Source: Bacteroidales bacterium
Lineage (GTDB): Bacteria; Bacteroidota; Bacteroidia; Bacteroidales; UBA932
DNA length: 64,000 nucleotides
Assembly (NCBI GenBank): GCA_024401855.1
Contig: JAKSKH010000004.1
Location: forward strand, 1-64,000
Reading direction: 5' to 3'
Shown here: piece after piece, positions 32,790 through 37,490 of the stretch
How the letters are laid out: the number at the start of each line of letters is the position of its first letter
Position numbering within the stretch: position 1 is the stretch's first letter
Notes under the pieces: model-generated
Seen by the model: only the letters and a program-made list of their open reading frames with translations
What the model was told of the DNA's origin: nothing
Database searches by the model: none
Program-made: the position numbers and the translations under genes

Positions 32790-33686
32790 TTACTTGAAAA
32801 TCTTTTGCGCAAATTCAACGTAGAAAACCTTCCAGTTTGTCCAGTTATGCCCTCCGCCGGTTTCCACATACTGATAAGGGTAATTGCAATTGTCAAGATA
32901 CCGACGGTAATGCTTCATATGAAGATAGAAGAAATCCGATCTGCCGATACCTATCATGTATATAGATGGTGCTTGCGAAAACTGCTCTATCTGTTTGTGT
33001 TTCAAATCTTTATAGAAATCAGAGTACATGCTGTGCCTAATTGGGGCCTTGAACATGGGAGAAAACAAACCGACATATCCGAACACATCCGGATATGTTG
33101 CGGAGATATAGATGCTCTGCATGGCACCTACCGACAAACCGGCAATCGCTCTATGTCCTTTGTCGGGAATTGTCCTGTACAGACTGTCCACAAGTTCAAC
33201 CACGTCTTTAACGAAAAAGGACTCAACCACTCCATTGGTCTCAAAGAAAGATTCAATAGGTTTTTTGAAACGTGATTGAAATGCATCCTGATCATCATCA
33301 TATTCATTCATATTGGTCATGACTATGATAGATGCAGGCATTTTGCCGGAGCAGACAAGACTGTCAGAAGAATGAAGGATATTACCGTCTTTTATCCAGG
33401 AAGTTTCATTGCCTCTGGCACCATGAAAAATATATAATGCCGGGTATCGTTTCTCAGTGGAATAATAGTCCTCCGGCAAGTATACAAGCATTCTCCTTTC
33501 AGAAGGTCCTGTTCCGGCAGAAGACTTGCATATTATGGACTCAAGATGTCCTTCAGGACTGTATCTCTGTTCCATCTCTTCCGATGACATATATTCGGAT
33601 TTCTCGGAAGTCAGTACTTTTTGTATGCTGCAGGAGCAGACAAAAGGCAGCAGAGCCGAAAGCAATATGAACCTAGATTTAACCAT
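32790..33686 (-). CDS. Lipoprotein esterase, alpha/beta-hydrolase (esterase D/Fes-like)
   Basis: A 298-residue protein. The N-terminus MVKSRFILLSALLPFVCSCS has a lipobox (V-C-S-C or F-V-C), so it is likely anchored to a membrane on the periplasmic or surface side. The catalytic parts are RRMLVYLPEDYY and ALYIFHGARGNETSW (oxyanion-loop region), AGLSVGAMQSIYI as the G-x-S-x-G nucleophile elbow, and TGGGHNWTNWKVF with the catalytic histidine. This is the putative esterase family that includes feruloyl and siderophore esterases. The substrate is not predictable. It has its own promoter box and leads the minus-strand block. Confidence 0.82.
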   Translation of the reverse strand: MVKSRFILLSALLPFVCSCSIQKVLTSEKSEYMSSEEMEQRYSPEGHLESIICKSSAGTGPSERRMLVYLPEDYYSTEKRYPALYIFHGARGNETSWIKDGNILHSSDSLVCSGKMPASIIVMTNMNEYDDDQDAFQSRFKKPIESFFETNGVVESFFVKDVVELVDSLYRTIPDKGHRAIAGLSVGAMQSIYISATYPDVFGYVGLFSPMFKAPIRHSMYSDFYKDLKHKQIEQFSQAPSIYMIGIGRSDFFYLHMKHYRRYLDNCNYPYQYVETGGGHNWTNWKVFYVEFAQKIFK

Positions 33687-33697
33687 ATATCATACTA

Positions 33698-33705
33698 CAA
33701 ACTTA
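33698..33705 (-). promoter_or_regulatory. -7 box for the esterase gene
   Basis: On the minus strand TAAGTTTG matches TAnnTTTG and ends 11 bases before the ATG at 33686. Confidence 0.5.
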
Positions 33706-33761
33706 ATCAAATTATCGGTATAATTCTTTACAAATGATAGCTAATTTTCTATAAGAATGTT

Positions 33762-33769
33762 TATTTTTG
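33762..33769 (+). promoter_or_regulatory. -7 box for ruvA, 7 bases before the start
   Basis: TATTTTTG matches TAnnTTTG and ends 7 bases before the ruvA ATG at 33777, another near-leaderless arrangement. No TTG at the expected distance was seen. Confidence 0.5.
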
Positions 33770-33776
33770 TCCAGTT

Positions 33777-34370
33777 ATGATAGATTACATTACAGGACAG
33801 GTCAAGGAATTGTCTCCTACGATGGTCGTCATCGAGAATCAGGGGATAGGATATTCTGCAGAAATTTCACTTCAGACATACTCTCTTTTAGAGGGGAAAG
33901 GGCAGGCAACCGTTTATTTTCAACGTCAAATCAACCAAAGGGACGGAACATTCGTAGATTACGGATTCGGAAGCAAGGAAGAGAGACAAATTTTTCAACT
34001 GATCACAGGAGTGTCCGGGATCGGGGCGTCTTCTGCAAGAATGATATTGTCATCCCTGTCAGCATCTGAAATTCAGGAATGCATACTATCTGAAGATACT
34101 AACAAGCTCAAGTCAATAAAAGGAATTGGCCTTAAGAGCGCTCAAAGAATGATACTTGAACTCAAGGATAAAATAGTAAAAGGTTCAAGCTCATCGGCAG
34201 AGGTATTATTCCACAACGACTCAAACGCTGCCGCAGAAGAAGCCACAAGCGCACTGCTGATGCTAGGGTTCTCCAAACCCAACATTTCAAAAGCACTCCA
34301 GCGTATATTAAAGGAATCTCCCAACATAAAAGTTGAAGAGATTATAAAGAATGCACTTAAGATTCTTTAG
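33777..34370 (+). CDS. ruvA: Holliday junction branch migration protein RuvA
   Basis: A 197-residue DNA-binding protein. MIDYITGQVKELSPTMVVIENQGIGY is the N-terminal OB domain start. GVSGIGASSARMIL and IKGIGLKSAQRMILELKDK are the two helix-hairpin-helix motifs that hold the junction. The C-terminal AEEATSALLMLGFSKPNI is the RuvB-contacting domain. RuvA tetramers bind four-way junctions and load RuvB, which is encoded separately at 41509-42528 here. Convergent with mnmG, with 21 bases between the stops that contain a parS-like sequence. Confidence 0.96.
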   Translation: MIDYITGQVKELSPTMVVIENQGIGYSAEISLQTYSLLEGKGQATVYFQRQINQRDGTFVDYGFGSKEERQIFQLITGVSGIGASSARMILSSLSASEIQECILSEDTNKLKSIKGIGLKSAQRMILELKDKIVKGSSSSAEVLFHNDSNAAAEEATSALLMLGFSKPNISKALQRILKESPNIKVEEIIKNALKIL

Positions 34371-34372
34371 CG

Positions 34373-34388
34373 CGTTCCACGGGGAACA
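34373..34388. promoter_or_regulatory. Weak parS-like site between ruvA and mnmG
   Basis: CGTTCCACGGGGAACA differs from the symmetric form TGTTCCACGTGGAACA at two positions (1 and 10). It fills the gap between the two convergent stop codons, 270 bases from the stronger site. Confidence 0.45.
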
Positions 34389-34391
34389 TTT

Positions 34392-36248
34392 CTATCTGCC
34401 GAAATAAACAAGAAGAACAGAAATATCAGAAGGTGATACACCCGATATACGAGAGGCCTGCCCAATAGTGGCAGGCTTATACTTTTCTAATTTCTGTTTA
34501 CATTCGATTGTCAAACCGGACAGTGAGGAAAAATTGAAATTGTCCGGAATTTTTAAATTCTCAAGTCTTTTCATTTTGAGAGCAAGTTGAAGCTCGCGCT
34601 CAATATAACCTCTATATTTGATAGCAATCTCGGCGCTCTCCACTACATCATCGGGAAATGTTCCACGTGAAACATGAGGAAGAAAAGAATTAAGCGCAAC
34701 ACCTGGTCTTGAAACAAGATCAATAAGCTTTTTCGATTCGGAGATAGAAGTGGAAAAAGGAGAAAGGATAGGATTTGCAACATCCGGCTTAATGGACTTG
34801 CTCGAGCATAAAGACAGCAGCGAATCAACGGAAGAGTATTTCCGTTCAAGAAGTTCGAGACGATGTTTGTCTGCCAAACCAATGGAATATGATAGAGGAG
34901 TCAACCTTTGATCCGCATTGTCCTGTCTGAGCAAAATCCTATACTCGGCTCGAGAAGTAAACATTCTATAAGGTTCATCTACACCTTTTGAAATTAAATC
35001 ATCAATCAAGACACCGATATATGATTGGTCTCTACGCAAAATGAATGGATCTTTACAGTCAAGAAAAAGTGAAGCATTAATTCCTGCAACAAGCCCTTGA
35101 GCAGCGGCTTCTTCATAACCTGTAGTACCGTTAACTTGTCCGGCAAAAAACAGATTATAAAAAATTTTGGATTGTAAACTTGCTCTTAGCTGAGTTGGAT
35201 CGAAATAATCATACTCTACGGCATAGGCAGGTCTATATACACGGGCATTCTCTAATCCATGGATATGATGAAGAGCGTCAATCTGAATATCATAAGGTAA
35301 AGAAGAAGAAAATCCTTGTAAATAGTATTCATTGATGGATCTGCCCTCTGGCTCAAGAAAAAGTTGGTGAGCATCATTATCCGGAAAAACGCGGAGCTTA
35401 TCTTCAATGCTTGGGCAATACCTGGGTCCTTTTCCGTGAATCAAACCGGTAAAAAGAGGAGACAGATTAAAACCGGACTTTAAAATTTCATGTACGGCAG
35501 GATTAGTGTGAAGAACATAACAAAGCATCTGGTTATTATTCTTCTGAACCGAGGAAGGAATATCAAGAAAAGAGAAACGTCCGGGATTCTGATCTCCACT
35601 TTGTACAGGCAAGTTCGAAAGGTCAACAGAAGAGATGTCAATGCGAGGAGGAGTACCGGTTTTCATCCGCTCTGTTGAGAAACCTAAAGATACAAGTTGT
35701 TCGGTCAAACCATAAGAAGGGGATTCACCAATTCTTCCTCCAGGTAAAGACTGGGTACCAATAAATAATTTACCGGAAAGAAAGGTTCCAGCCGTCAGAA
35801 TAACTGCCCGAGATTTAAAAATAAGGCCTGAAACTGTACGTACTCCAAGGATTTTTTGATTCTCAATGAGAAAAGAGCAGGCAATATCCTCATATAGCGT
35901 TATATTACAGTTACTTACAAGAATTTTTCTCCAATTGGATGAAAATGCAAGTTTATCACACTGGGCGCGGGGGCTCCACATTGCAGGACCTTTGGACTTA
36001 TTGAGCATACGGAACTGCAAAGTTGAGCTGTCGGTTACAATGCCAGTATAACCACCGAGAGCATCTATTTCTCTGACTATCTGACCTTTAGCTATACCAC
36101 CAACAGCTGGATTACAAGACATTTTAGCATAGCCCAAAGAATCCATGGAGAGTAAGAGAACACTCTTGCCAAGGTTGGCAGCCGCCATGGAGGCCTCACA
36201 ACCGGCATGCCCCCCACCAACAACGATAATGTCAAAATTGTTTTCCAT
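34392..36248 (-). CDS. mnmG: tRNA uridine-5-carboxymethylaminomethyl modification enzyme MnmG
   Basis: A 618-residue flavoprotein which with MnmE modifies U34 of several tRNAs. N-terminal FAD motif DIIVVGGGHAGCEASMAAA, then SCNPAVGGIAKGQIVREIDALGG (family signature), PALKPGF-like and GRIGESPSYGL segments, QVNGTTGYEEAAAQG (signature 2), and a helical C-terminal domain with EIAIKYRGYIEREL and ARISGVSPSDISVLLVY. Length is normal. It follows ybeY by 3 bases. mnmG (gidA) often lies near oriC, and a parS site is inside its coding sequence (34659-34674). Confidence 0.96.
   Translation of the reverse strand: MENNFDIIVVGGGHAGCEASMAAANLGKSVLLLSMDSLGYAKMSCNPAVGGIAKGQIVREIDALGGYTGIVTDSSTLQFRMLNKSKGPAMWSPRAQCDKLAFSSNWRKILVSNCNITLYEDIACSFLIENQKILGVRTVSGLIFKSRAVILTAGTFLSGKLFIGTQSLPGGRIGESPSYGLTEQLVSLGFSTERMKTGTPPRIDISSVDLSNLPVQSGDQNPGRFSFLDIPSSVQKNNNQMLCYVLHTNPAVHEILKSGFNLSPLFTGLIHGKGPRYCPSIEDKLRVFPDNDAHQLFLEPEGRSINEYYLQGFSSSLPYDIQIDALHHIHGLENARVYRPAYAVEYDYFDPTQLRASLQSKIFYNLFFAGQVNGTTGYEEAAAQGLVAGINASLFLDCKDPFILRRDQSYIGVLIDDLISKGVDEPYRMFTSRAEYRILLRQDNADQRLTPLSYSIGLADKHRLELLERKYSSVDSLLSLCSSKSIKPDVANPILSPFSTSISESKKLIDLVSRPGVALNSFLPHVSRGTFPDDVVESAEIAIKYRGYIERELQLALKMKRLENLKIPDNFNFSSLSGLTIECKQKLEKYKPATIGQASRISGVSPSDISVLLVYFGR
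34659..34674. promoter_or_regulatory. parS centromere-like site inside mnmG
   Basis: TGTTCCACGTGAAACA matches the widely conserved ParB-binding consensus TGTTNCACGTGAAACA at every fixed position. It encodes part of the MnmG C-terminal domain (about residues 525-530). ParB binding here would start spreading and loading of condensin for segregation of the chromosome origin region. Confidence 0.8.
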
Positions 36249-36251
36249 TAG

Positions 36252-36686
36252 TTATAACTGACATGAAAAGAGAGAAGTTCTGAGAAGGAGATACTGGTCT
36301 TCTTTTGAACGCATAATCGCAATGTCTGATTCCGAATGATCATCATAACCGACGAGGTGAAGAATACCGTGAACAATAACACGGTTAAGTTCCTCATTGA
36401 AATCAGTATGATAGAAAAGGGAATTGTCTCTTACAGTATCGATACTTATGAAAAGGTCACCTGAAAGAATATCACCTTCACAATAGTCAAAAGTAATGAT
36501 GTCGGTATAATAAGTATGTTGAAGAAAGCGTTGGTTTACATCAAGAATGTAAGGATCAGAACAGAAAATGATGTTAATATCTCCAAGAGTTTTACCCTCA
36601 TTTAAAGCAACGTTTTCAAGCCAGAGTTTCGTAAAGCGCTTTTTGTTGAATTTGAAAGAGATATCTTCAATAAAGTACCTGACCAT
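36252..36686 (-). CDS. ybeY: Endoribonuclease YbeY (rRNA maturation factor)
   Basis: A 144-residue metalloprotein used in 16S rRNA 3' maturation and ribosome quality control. HGILHLVGYDDHSESD (about 110-125) is the zinc-binding signature; it has one extra residue before the third ligand compared with the H-G-x-L-H-L-x-G-Y-D-H pattern of E. coli, a variation I associate with Bacteroidota. SGDLFISIDTVRDN and EGKTLGDINIIFCSDPYIL are the other family blocks. It is the first gene of a ybeY-mnmG operon. Confidence 0.92.
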   Translation of the reverse strand: MVRYFIEDISFKFNKKRFTKLWLENVALNEGKTLGDINIIFCSDPYILDVNQRFLQHTYYTDIITFDYCEGDILSGDLFISIDTVRDNSLFYHTDFNEELNRVIVHGILHLVGYDDHSESDIAIMRSKEDQYLLLRTSLFSCQL

Positions 36687-36710
36687 AAATTATGAACTTA
36701 AAATTGTTGA

Positions 36711-36718
36711 CAAATCTA
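36711..36718 (-). promoter_or_regulatory. -7 box for ybeY-mnmG
   Basis: On the minus strand TAGATTTG matches TAnnTTTG and ends 24 bases before the ybeY ATG. It sits back to back with the tonB promoter, so the two promoters may interfere. Confidence 0.5.
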
Positions 36719-36737
36719 CAACTATTAAAGCAAAATA

Positions 36738-36768
36738 TTGGAATTAAAATATATTATTTCTACATTTG
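36738..36768 (+). promoter_or_regulatory. Promoter of the TonB-like gene
   Basis: TTG (36738-36740), a 20-base spacer and TACATTTG (36761-36768) are a full match to the Bacteroidota promoter. The TTG can be misread as a start codon of a longer frame. Confidence 0.7.
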
Positions 36769-36800
36769 TTACCCAAACTGATTATTTAAATAACCAAAAT

Positions 36801-37490
36801 ATGGAAGTCAAGAAATCGGAAAAGGCAAGTCTTGAGAATAAAAGACTACTTTTTGTAGAGATTGGTTTCGTAGTAGCGCTGCTTATCACACTTGGAGCAT
36901 TTGAATGGACAAGCAAAGATAAAGTAGTGTCTTCTTTGGGGCCTGAGAACACTGAGGTGGCAGAGGAGGAAATCATTCCAATTACACAGGATACACCTCC
37001 ACCTCCACCGGAAGCACCCAAAATCCCTATTCTTTCAGACCAGATTGATATCGTGGATGATAACATCAACGTAGATGACAATATCATCAATCTGGAAGAC
37101 AGCAATGATCTCGGAGTAGAGGTTATGGATTACGTGGAGGAAGTAAAGGAAGAGGCCGTTGAAGAGGAAGCAATTCCTTTCCAGCTGGTTGAAGAGAAAC
37201 CCAAGTTCAAGGGAGGAGACGCAAATGAATTCTCAAAATGGGTTGCTCAGAACCTTCAGTATCCGGAAATTGCTAAGGAGAATGGTGTACAGGGTCGAGT
37301 TATGCTGCAGTTCACAGTTAATCCCAATGGAACAATTTCAGATGTAAAAGTACTTCGTGGAGTTGACGCATCACTTGACAAAGAGGCAGTCAGAGTAGTT
37401 TCATCTTCTCCGAAATGGACTCCTGGAAAGCAGAGAGACCGTGCAGTAAAGGTTACCTATACTTTCCCTGTAATATTCCAGCTGAGATAA
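36801..37490 (+). CDS. TonB family energy transducer
   Basis: A 229-residue protein from MEVKKSEKASLENKR; the longer frame from TTG 36738 begins in the -33 promoter box and is rejected. There is a single N-terminal membrane helix (about 18-38), a proline-rich and acidic periplasmic stretch (TQDTPPPPPEAPKIP, then VEEVKEEAVEEE), and a C-terminal TonB domain with WVAQNLQYPEIAKENGVQGR, VMLQFTVNPNGTISDVKV and VSSSPKWTPGKQRDRAV. It should pass energy from ExbB-ExbD to TonB-dependent receptors; no exbBD genes are in the window. A terminator follows directly. Confidence 0.9.
   Translation: MEVKKSEKASLENKRLLFVEIGFVVALLITLGAFEWTSKDKVVSSLGPENTEVAEEEIIPITQDTPPPPPEAPKIPILSDQIDIVDDNINVDDNIINLEDSNDLGVEVMDYVEEVKEEAVEEEAIPFQLVEEKPKFKGGDANEFSKWVAQNLQYPEIAKENGVQGRVMLQFTVNPNGTISDVKVLRGVDASLDKEAVRVVSSSPKWTPGKQRDRAVKVTYTFPVIFQLR

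Follow-up and report, generated by a model that had tools for sequence, protein, structure and literature searches.

The closest described relatives of the locus reported here are the chromosomal parS sites of ParABS systems. Their consensus reportedly goes back to Livny in 2007, parS sites inside genes are known from B. subtilis, and the gene order mnmG-rsmG-parAB occurs in other phyla. According to the accessible part of a study of twelve gut bacteria, Bacteroides caecimuris and Muribaculum intestinale among them, parS sites cluster at an origin that was defined by parS and skew and did not always coincide with dnaA (PMC10197239, also our source for the consensus as used). For Flavobacteriaceae, the accessible text of two papers places oriC at mnmG, with Ori-Finder predictions and GC skew in agreement (PMC11278836, PMC12843772); the first of these uses mnmG as origin marker in place of dnaA, and one of its figure legends has the ter and oriC labels swapped relative to the text. 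The present locus resembles the gut-bacterial clusters, with Bacteroides caecimuris among their hosts, in having parS in a probable origin region, and the Flavobacteriaceae in having mnmG as a likely origin marker, but the accessible portions of these articles mention neither mnmG nor a coding position in the former case and no parS in the latter. Among the titles and opening lines of abstracts listed in our literature search, in which few subscription journals were covered, there was no parS at mnmG in Bacteroidota and no parS under coding constraint; terms on intragenic sites and on Bacteroidetes did not occur in the accessible part of a review of chromosomal ParB (PMC7022226).

We analysed a window of 64,000 nucleotides, the first 64 kb of a contig of 88,816 bases (C34) in a draft assembly of 2,033,491 bases (67 contigs, 85% completeness). 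Judged by MnmG, Candidatus Cryptobacteroides equifaecalis and C. caccocaballi are among its many Bacteroidales relatives. The window holds a parS match inside mnmG (site A) and a parS-like sequence directly behind this gene (site B). On comparative sequence evidence, site A is very probably a working parS, that is, a chromosomal loading site for ParB clamps, in the origin region of a Cryptobacteroides-type Bacteroidales chromosome; since the assembly is in 67 contigs, we infer the origin region of this genome from its relatives. As in known ParABS systems, there is a 16-bp palindrome in one to three close copies, a putative parA-parB pair and, in relatives, a probable location in the origin region. 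Unlike in those systems, a copy lies inside mnmG, in one fixed frame and under coding constraint. A parS in the origin region is ordinary in kind; what the comparison adds, and what makes the form instructive, is the dual coding in mnmG together with its conservation in a clade.

By analogy with other bacteria, ParB, whose predicted gene is paired with that of ParA on another contig, would recognise the palindrome, close as a CTP-bound clamp and spread onto neighbouring DNA, and ParA would move the ParB complex and thereby separate newly copied origin regions. If this reading is true, mnmG with parS would be a simple origin-region marker in Bacteroidales and relatives, usable also for draft genomes and metagenome assemblies in which dnaA is misleading, and site A would be a natural case of a centromere sequence that apparently dictates protein sequence in a tRNA-modifying enzyme.

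An exact parS match inside mnmG

Site A (TGTTCCACGTGAAACA) has no mismatch to the 16-bp parS consensus TGTTNCACGTGNAACA, in agreement with an earlier sequence-only reading of this DNA, by which it matched every fixed position of the consensus. About 2e-4 exact matches are expected by chance in the window (64000/4^14). The genome scan that the reading had proposed returned no second exact match anywhere in the 2.03-Mb draft, and a chance origin of site A is ruled out by its being the sole one. The same reading spoke of two parS sites adjoining mnmG; this description suits site B, which starts 3 bp past the mnmG stop codon, but site A lies within the coding sequence, and both this position and the constraint at the DNA level had been overlooked. 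Site A is in frame, at codons 525–530, 93 codons ahead of the gene end, and on the minus strand it contains GTT TCA CGT GGA ACA, which encodes V-S-R-G-T (codons 526–530). The product of mnmG is an enzyme for tRNA uridine-5-carboxymethylaminomethyl(34) synthesis.

Table 1 Features of the locus and of the putative partition genes. Positions refer to the window unless another sequence is named
Feature	Position	Strand	Description
parS site A	34659-34674	.	Exact consensus match, within mnmG
parS-like site B	34373-34388	.	2 mismatches, flanked by the convergent ruvA and mnmG stops
mnmG (gidA)	34392-36248	-	618 aa; TIGR00136, 768.8 bits (cut-off 524.85); hosts site A
ruvA	33777-34370	+	Convergent with mnmG
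Second synonymously constrained stretch, in mnmG of relatives	35790-35954	-	Codons ~99-153, core ~108-136
Cumulative GC skew minimum	42498	.	Over the 84 kb of contig examined
parA-like gene	L075 2850-3638, contig C7		262 aa; overlaps the parB-like gene
parB-like gene	L075 3622-4557, contig C7		311 aa; overlaps the parA-like gene

Exact matches to the consensus occur in 37 of 61 genomes, this one included, compared with none of 61 for the reversed control pattern. We located mnmG in 55 of these genomes. Within 1 kb of mnmG lie 45 of the 47 exact sites (14 inside the gene, 29 on its 3′ side and 2 on its 5′ side), so placed in 36 of the 37 parS-bearing genomes; the exceptions are in G048, where one site of three is on a different contig, and in G016, whose site is 1.9 kb off, within sufS. 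No exact match was found in the remaining 24 of the 61 genomes. Sixteen mnmG loci come from genomes without an exact match, and 13 of them have a site with one or two mismatches in or near the gene. The whole mnmG of G037 has no parS-like site in or near it, and the mnmG of the other two (G052 and G002) is cut by a contig end.

In a sample of the phylum, 110 of 148 genomes, again including this one, have an exact match and 38 have none; the reversed control matches in 2 of 148. The matches listed come from 43 of the 109 other genomes with a match, all of the same class or of family f40 outside it. Of these 74 sites, 71 are no more than 1 kb from mnmG: 46 flank its 5′ side, 24 its 3′ side, and 1 is inside the gene. 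For six genomes with a split mnmG match, the two pieces were merged in the distance counts. Among the matches listed, a parS within 1 kb of mnmG is present in 40 of the 43 genomes. Because these matches cover the same class and f40, the association of parS with mnmG is demonstrated for this class and for a single family beyond it. The three exceptions are G084, G123 and G131, whose parS is either on a contig other than that of mnmG or 25 kb away from the gene.

The parS-like site behind the mnmG stop codon

As the sequence-only reading had it, site B (CGTTCCACGGGGAACA) is a two-mismatch relative of the consensus set between convergent stops, with 21 bases separating the ruvA stop at 34370 from the mnmG stop at 34392. 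The window contains 3 parS matches at up to three mismatches where 1.99 are expected. In the genome there are 3 places at up to two mismatches, fewer than the 9 that the reversed control pattern gives. Judged on its sequence alone, site B is therefore at chance level, a point that the sequence-only reading had missed. It departs from the 16-bp consensus, and its link to parS is through orthologous position only.

That position was compared in 109 mnmG genes, namely the window's own and 108 distinct complete coding sequences obtained from 113 loci. A parS within two mismatches is present in the 200 bp past the stop codon in 67 of the 109, starting within 20 bp in 45, whereas none of 436 control stretches taken from within these genes comes closer than four mismatches. 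Both site A and the post-stop site are present in 34 genes, site A alone in 39, the post-stop site alone in 33 and neither in 3, so that 106 of the 109 have one or the other within two mismatches, as do 33 of the 36 genes that lack site A. These counts and the 436 controls rule out chance as the source of the conserved parS position at mnmG. Site B is credible because its position is orthologous to intact sites in many relatives. To judge from sequence comparison, it is probably the post-stop copy found commonly in the order, with two consensus bases lost in this genome and either weak or decayed.

Site B might instead be a bidirectional terminator hairpin (GTTCC/GGAAC), perhaps made from an old parS. 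Its place in the 21 bases that separate two convergent stops and its deviation from the parS core would suit such a role, but exact or one-mismatch parS sequences occupy the same spot in many relatives, even where ruvA is not the neighbour, and by eye only a short TTT follows site B. We regard a terminator as possible but rather unlikely, and a weak or decayed parS copy remains our preferred reading.

The probable origin region and the putative partition genes

The sequence-only reading proposed that the mnmG locus is the ParB loading zone of an origin-proximal region. This proposal is largely supported, by the association of mnmG with parS and skew in relatives, by the sole exact site and by the adjacent parA- and parB-like genes, with binding itself predicted. 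We sampled 20 stretches of G154, a complete 4.38-Mb chromosome of the same class. Its GC skew switches from negative at 2.72 Mb to positive at 2.79 Mb, an interval that includes mnmG and parS (2.764 Mb); dnaA is at 4.188 Mb, 1.4 Mb away, and parB at 1.471 Mb. Skew is below zero in each of the 11 stretches between 0.66 and 2.72 Mb. Apart from these and the positive one at 2.79 Mb, the other eight stretches comprise five that are positive (at 3.4, 3.7, 4.0, 0.22 and 0.44 Mb) and three that are slightly negative (at 2.90 and 3.10 Mb and in the first 20 kb; −0.001 to −0.013).

We further compared skew on the two sides of mnmG, using two 20-kb stretches per side at ~40 to 110 kb from the gene, in 15 other genomes that were picked for long mnmG contigs (G013 from the same genus, G050 from the same order, ten from the same class and three from other parts of the phylum). 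In all 15, skew rises across the gene, with a mean step of 0.049; it is negative to the left in 13 and positive to the right in 13, and the smallest steps are 0.006, in G092 and G135. In the control with dnaA, for which 5 of the 15 genomes were used, skew rises in three of the five with a mean step of 0.011.

In the contig itself, the skew minimum falls just inside ruvB (minus strand), beside the gap that precedes mfd (plus strand) and 8 kb from site A. It is compatible with a nearby origin but is no proof of one. In a genome of the same genus (G016), where skew is weak and mixed, the minimum within the 167 kb examined falls ~14 kb away from mnmG. Since skew minima are offset and skew is weak, mnmG marks a region rather than the exact origin. 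No cluster of TTATCCACA, which we take to be the DnaA box motif, was found in 84 kb of the contig. GC content at third codon positions dips around mnmG–ruvB (25668–60273), with values of 0.72 in glyS, 0.32 in mnmG and 0.70 in ychF. As a separate observation, the GC content of G016 falls from ~0.55 to 0.465 around mnmG, with further drops elsewhere on the same contig.

The genes for DnaA and for ParA and ParB are on contigs other than that of mnmG in this assembly. In some relatives (G132, G089, G122 and, from the same class, G062) dnaA and mnmG are less than 30 kb apart; in the eight other same-class genomes that have both genes on one contig, the distance is 0.4 to 1.8 Mb. In each of the 22 single-contig genomes compared, at least 0.29 Mb separate mnmG from the best parB match (closest in G062), unlike in the mnmG-rsmG-parAB order; G193 has a weaker second parB match at 0.28 Mb. 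We infer that mnmG and parS have kept together from an old origin neighbourhood that parAB and, in much of the class, dnaA have left.

These distances also bear on the alternative that the parS at mnmG is a true ParB site yet not origin-proximal in this organism. The location of dnaA and parB on other contigs, the skew minima 8 kb (window) and 14 kb (G016) away and the weak skew in the genus would agree with it. The rise of skew at mnmG in 15 of 15 genomes, including those of the same genus and order, and the switch of skew sign at mnmG in the complete chromosome sampled both argue against it, and we consider it very unlikely. An origin-region parS thus remains the reading we adopt for site A.

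The predicted ParB scores above the cut-off of the parB_part model TIGR00180. Its best NCBIfam score is with the Noc model TIGR04285, under the cut-off of that model, and its best-scoring PDB chain is Noc, followed by Caulobacter ParB. It contains GERRFRA and ENVQR, which we take to be CTP-binding motifs. Four residues presumably separate ParB from Noc; here the outer pair (R and G) agrees with Caulobacter ParB, and the inner pair (S and R) matches neither of the chains compared. The assembly (67 contigs) contains no second ParB-family match, which argues against separate ParB and Noc proteins. For ParA, no ParA model is above cut-off among the 25 models listed.

Codon constraint in mnmG

Near codon 526, site A is present within two mismatches in 73 of the 109 mnmG genes, always in one frame; the remaining 36 have at least four mismatches at this position. 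A convergent ruvA serves as a clade label that is independent of the motif. With this label, site A is found at the same codons in 62 of 62 genes, compared with 10 of 46 without it. Across the 73 copies, the two outermost bases take 36 of the 54 mismatches. Site A is thus conserved in relatives at the level of DNA, as a chromosomal parS would be.

Codon choice at the site was compared with counts expected from each gene's own usage, in the 73 genes selected by the motif itself, so that only the ruvA grouping is an independent comparison. Valine is encoded by GTT in 73 of 73 cases (23.6 expected), proline by CCA in 69 of 70 (8.2), arginine by CGT in 62 of 65 (13.7), glycine by GGA in 68 of 68 (23.3) and threonine by ACA in 49 of 72 (14.5). 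Because the sequences share ancestry, we omit p-values. The synonymous excess along mnmG peaks at site A, at 0.72 (gene mean 0.07, standard deviation 0.10), and does not exceed 0.36 in the scored windows of seven nearby genes (ruvA, ybeY, tonB, hflX, sdhB, sufS and glyS), with 30 to 69 sequences per gene.

The protein around the site is variable. Residues that flank the peptide vary, the length of mnmG varies directly after it, the distance from site A to the stop codon ranges from 93 to 191 codons across relatives, and the position aligns with a gapped stretch of solved MnmG chains. In-frame MnmG insertions were observed right behind the VPRGT-like peptide at L040, L043, L046, L054, L055, L057, L059, L142, L154, L158 and L165. 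A site within two mismatches also occurs in 19 of 64 sufS sequences, a set that draws on two collections and may count some genomes twice, in the same frame and mostly encoding VPRGT (for example L052, L136 and L142); the window's own sufS has no third site, its best match having five mismatches.

As parS in the mnmG of this clade is always in the V-P-R-G-T frame or a close variant, the pentapeptide is probably a by-product of the upkeep of the DNA site. The converse, that MnmG needs VPRGT and the palindrome is merely an accident of its codons, would account for the near invariance of the peptide in the 73 site-A genes (V in 73, P in 70, R in 65, G in 68 and T in 72) but is highly improbable, given that synonymous codons are fixed too, far above the genes' own usage, that the surrounding protein varies in residues and length and is gapped in solved chains, that 33 of the 36 genes without site A have a parS behind the stop codon, and that sufS carries the site in the same frame.

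The mnmG genes of the same clade contain another stretch under strong synonymous constraint (Table 1), with an excess of 0.50. Its consensus, derived from 73 of 74 sequences (L132, which does not have the stretch, was left out), is A+T-rich and contains TGTAAATTAGATATTTAC and CTCTTTGAGAATTCAAAAAT; the window copy deviates from it. Like site A, this stretch seems to dictate unusual MnmG residues. There were no consensus pairs in a search of the stretch for RNA structure. The sole Rfam match in 33500–37000, at E values up to 1, was to a snoRNA family at 35260–35315, below the gathering score, and was rejected as chance.

A speculative extension, which we hold to be unlikely, is that mnmG is a composite of chromosomal control region and enzyme gene. 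Selection on ParB-parS would then have written the pentapeptide into MnmG and, in the same frame, into some SufS proteins, and the second element, A+T-rich, unrelated to parS and located at codons ~108–136, would serve the origin in another way, for instance in unwinding, in binding of an initiator or in the loading of a chromosome-folding protein. An exact 18-mer of the second stretch is present in 27 of 195 loci, 25 of them among the listed stretches and 2 in short mnmG loci of genomes that are also otherwise represented.
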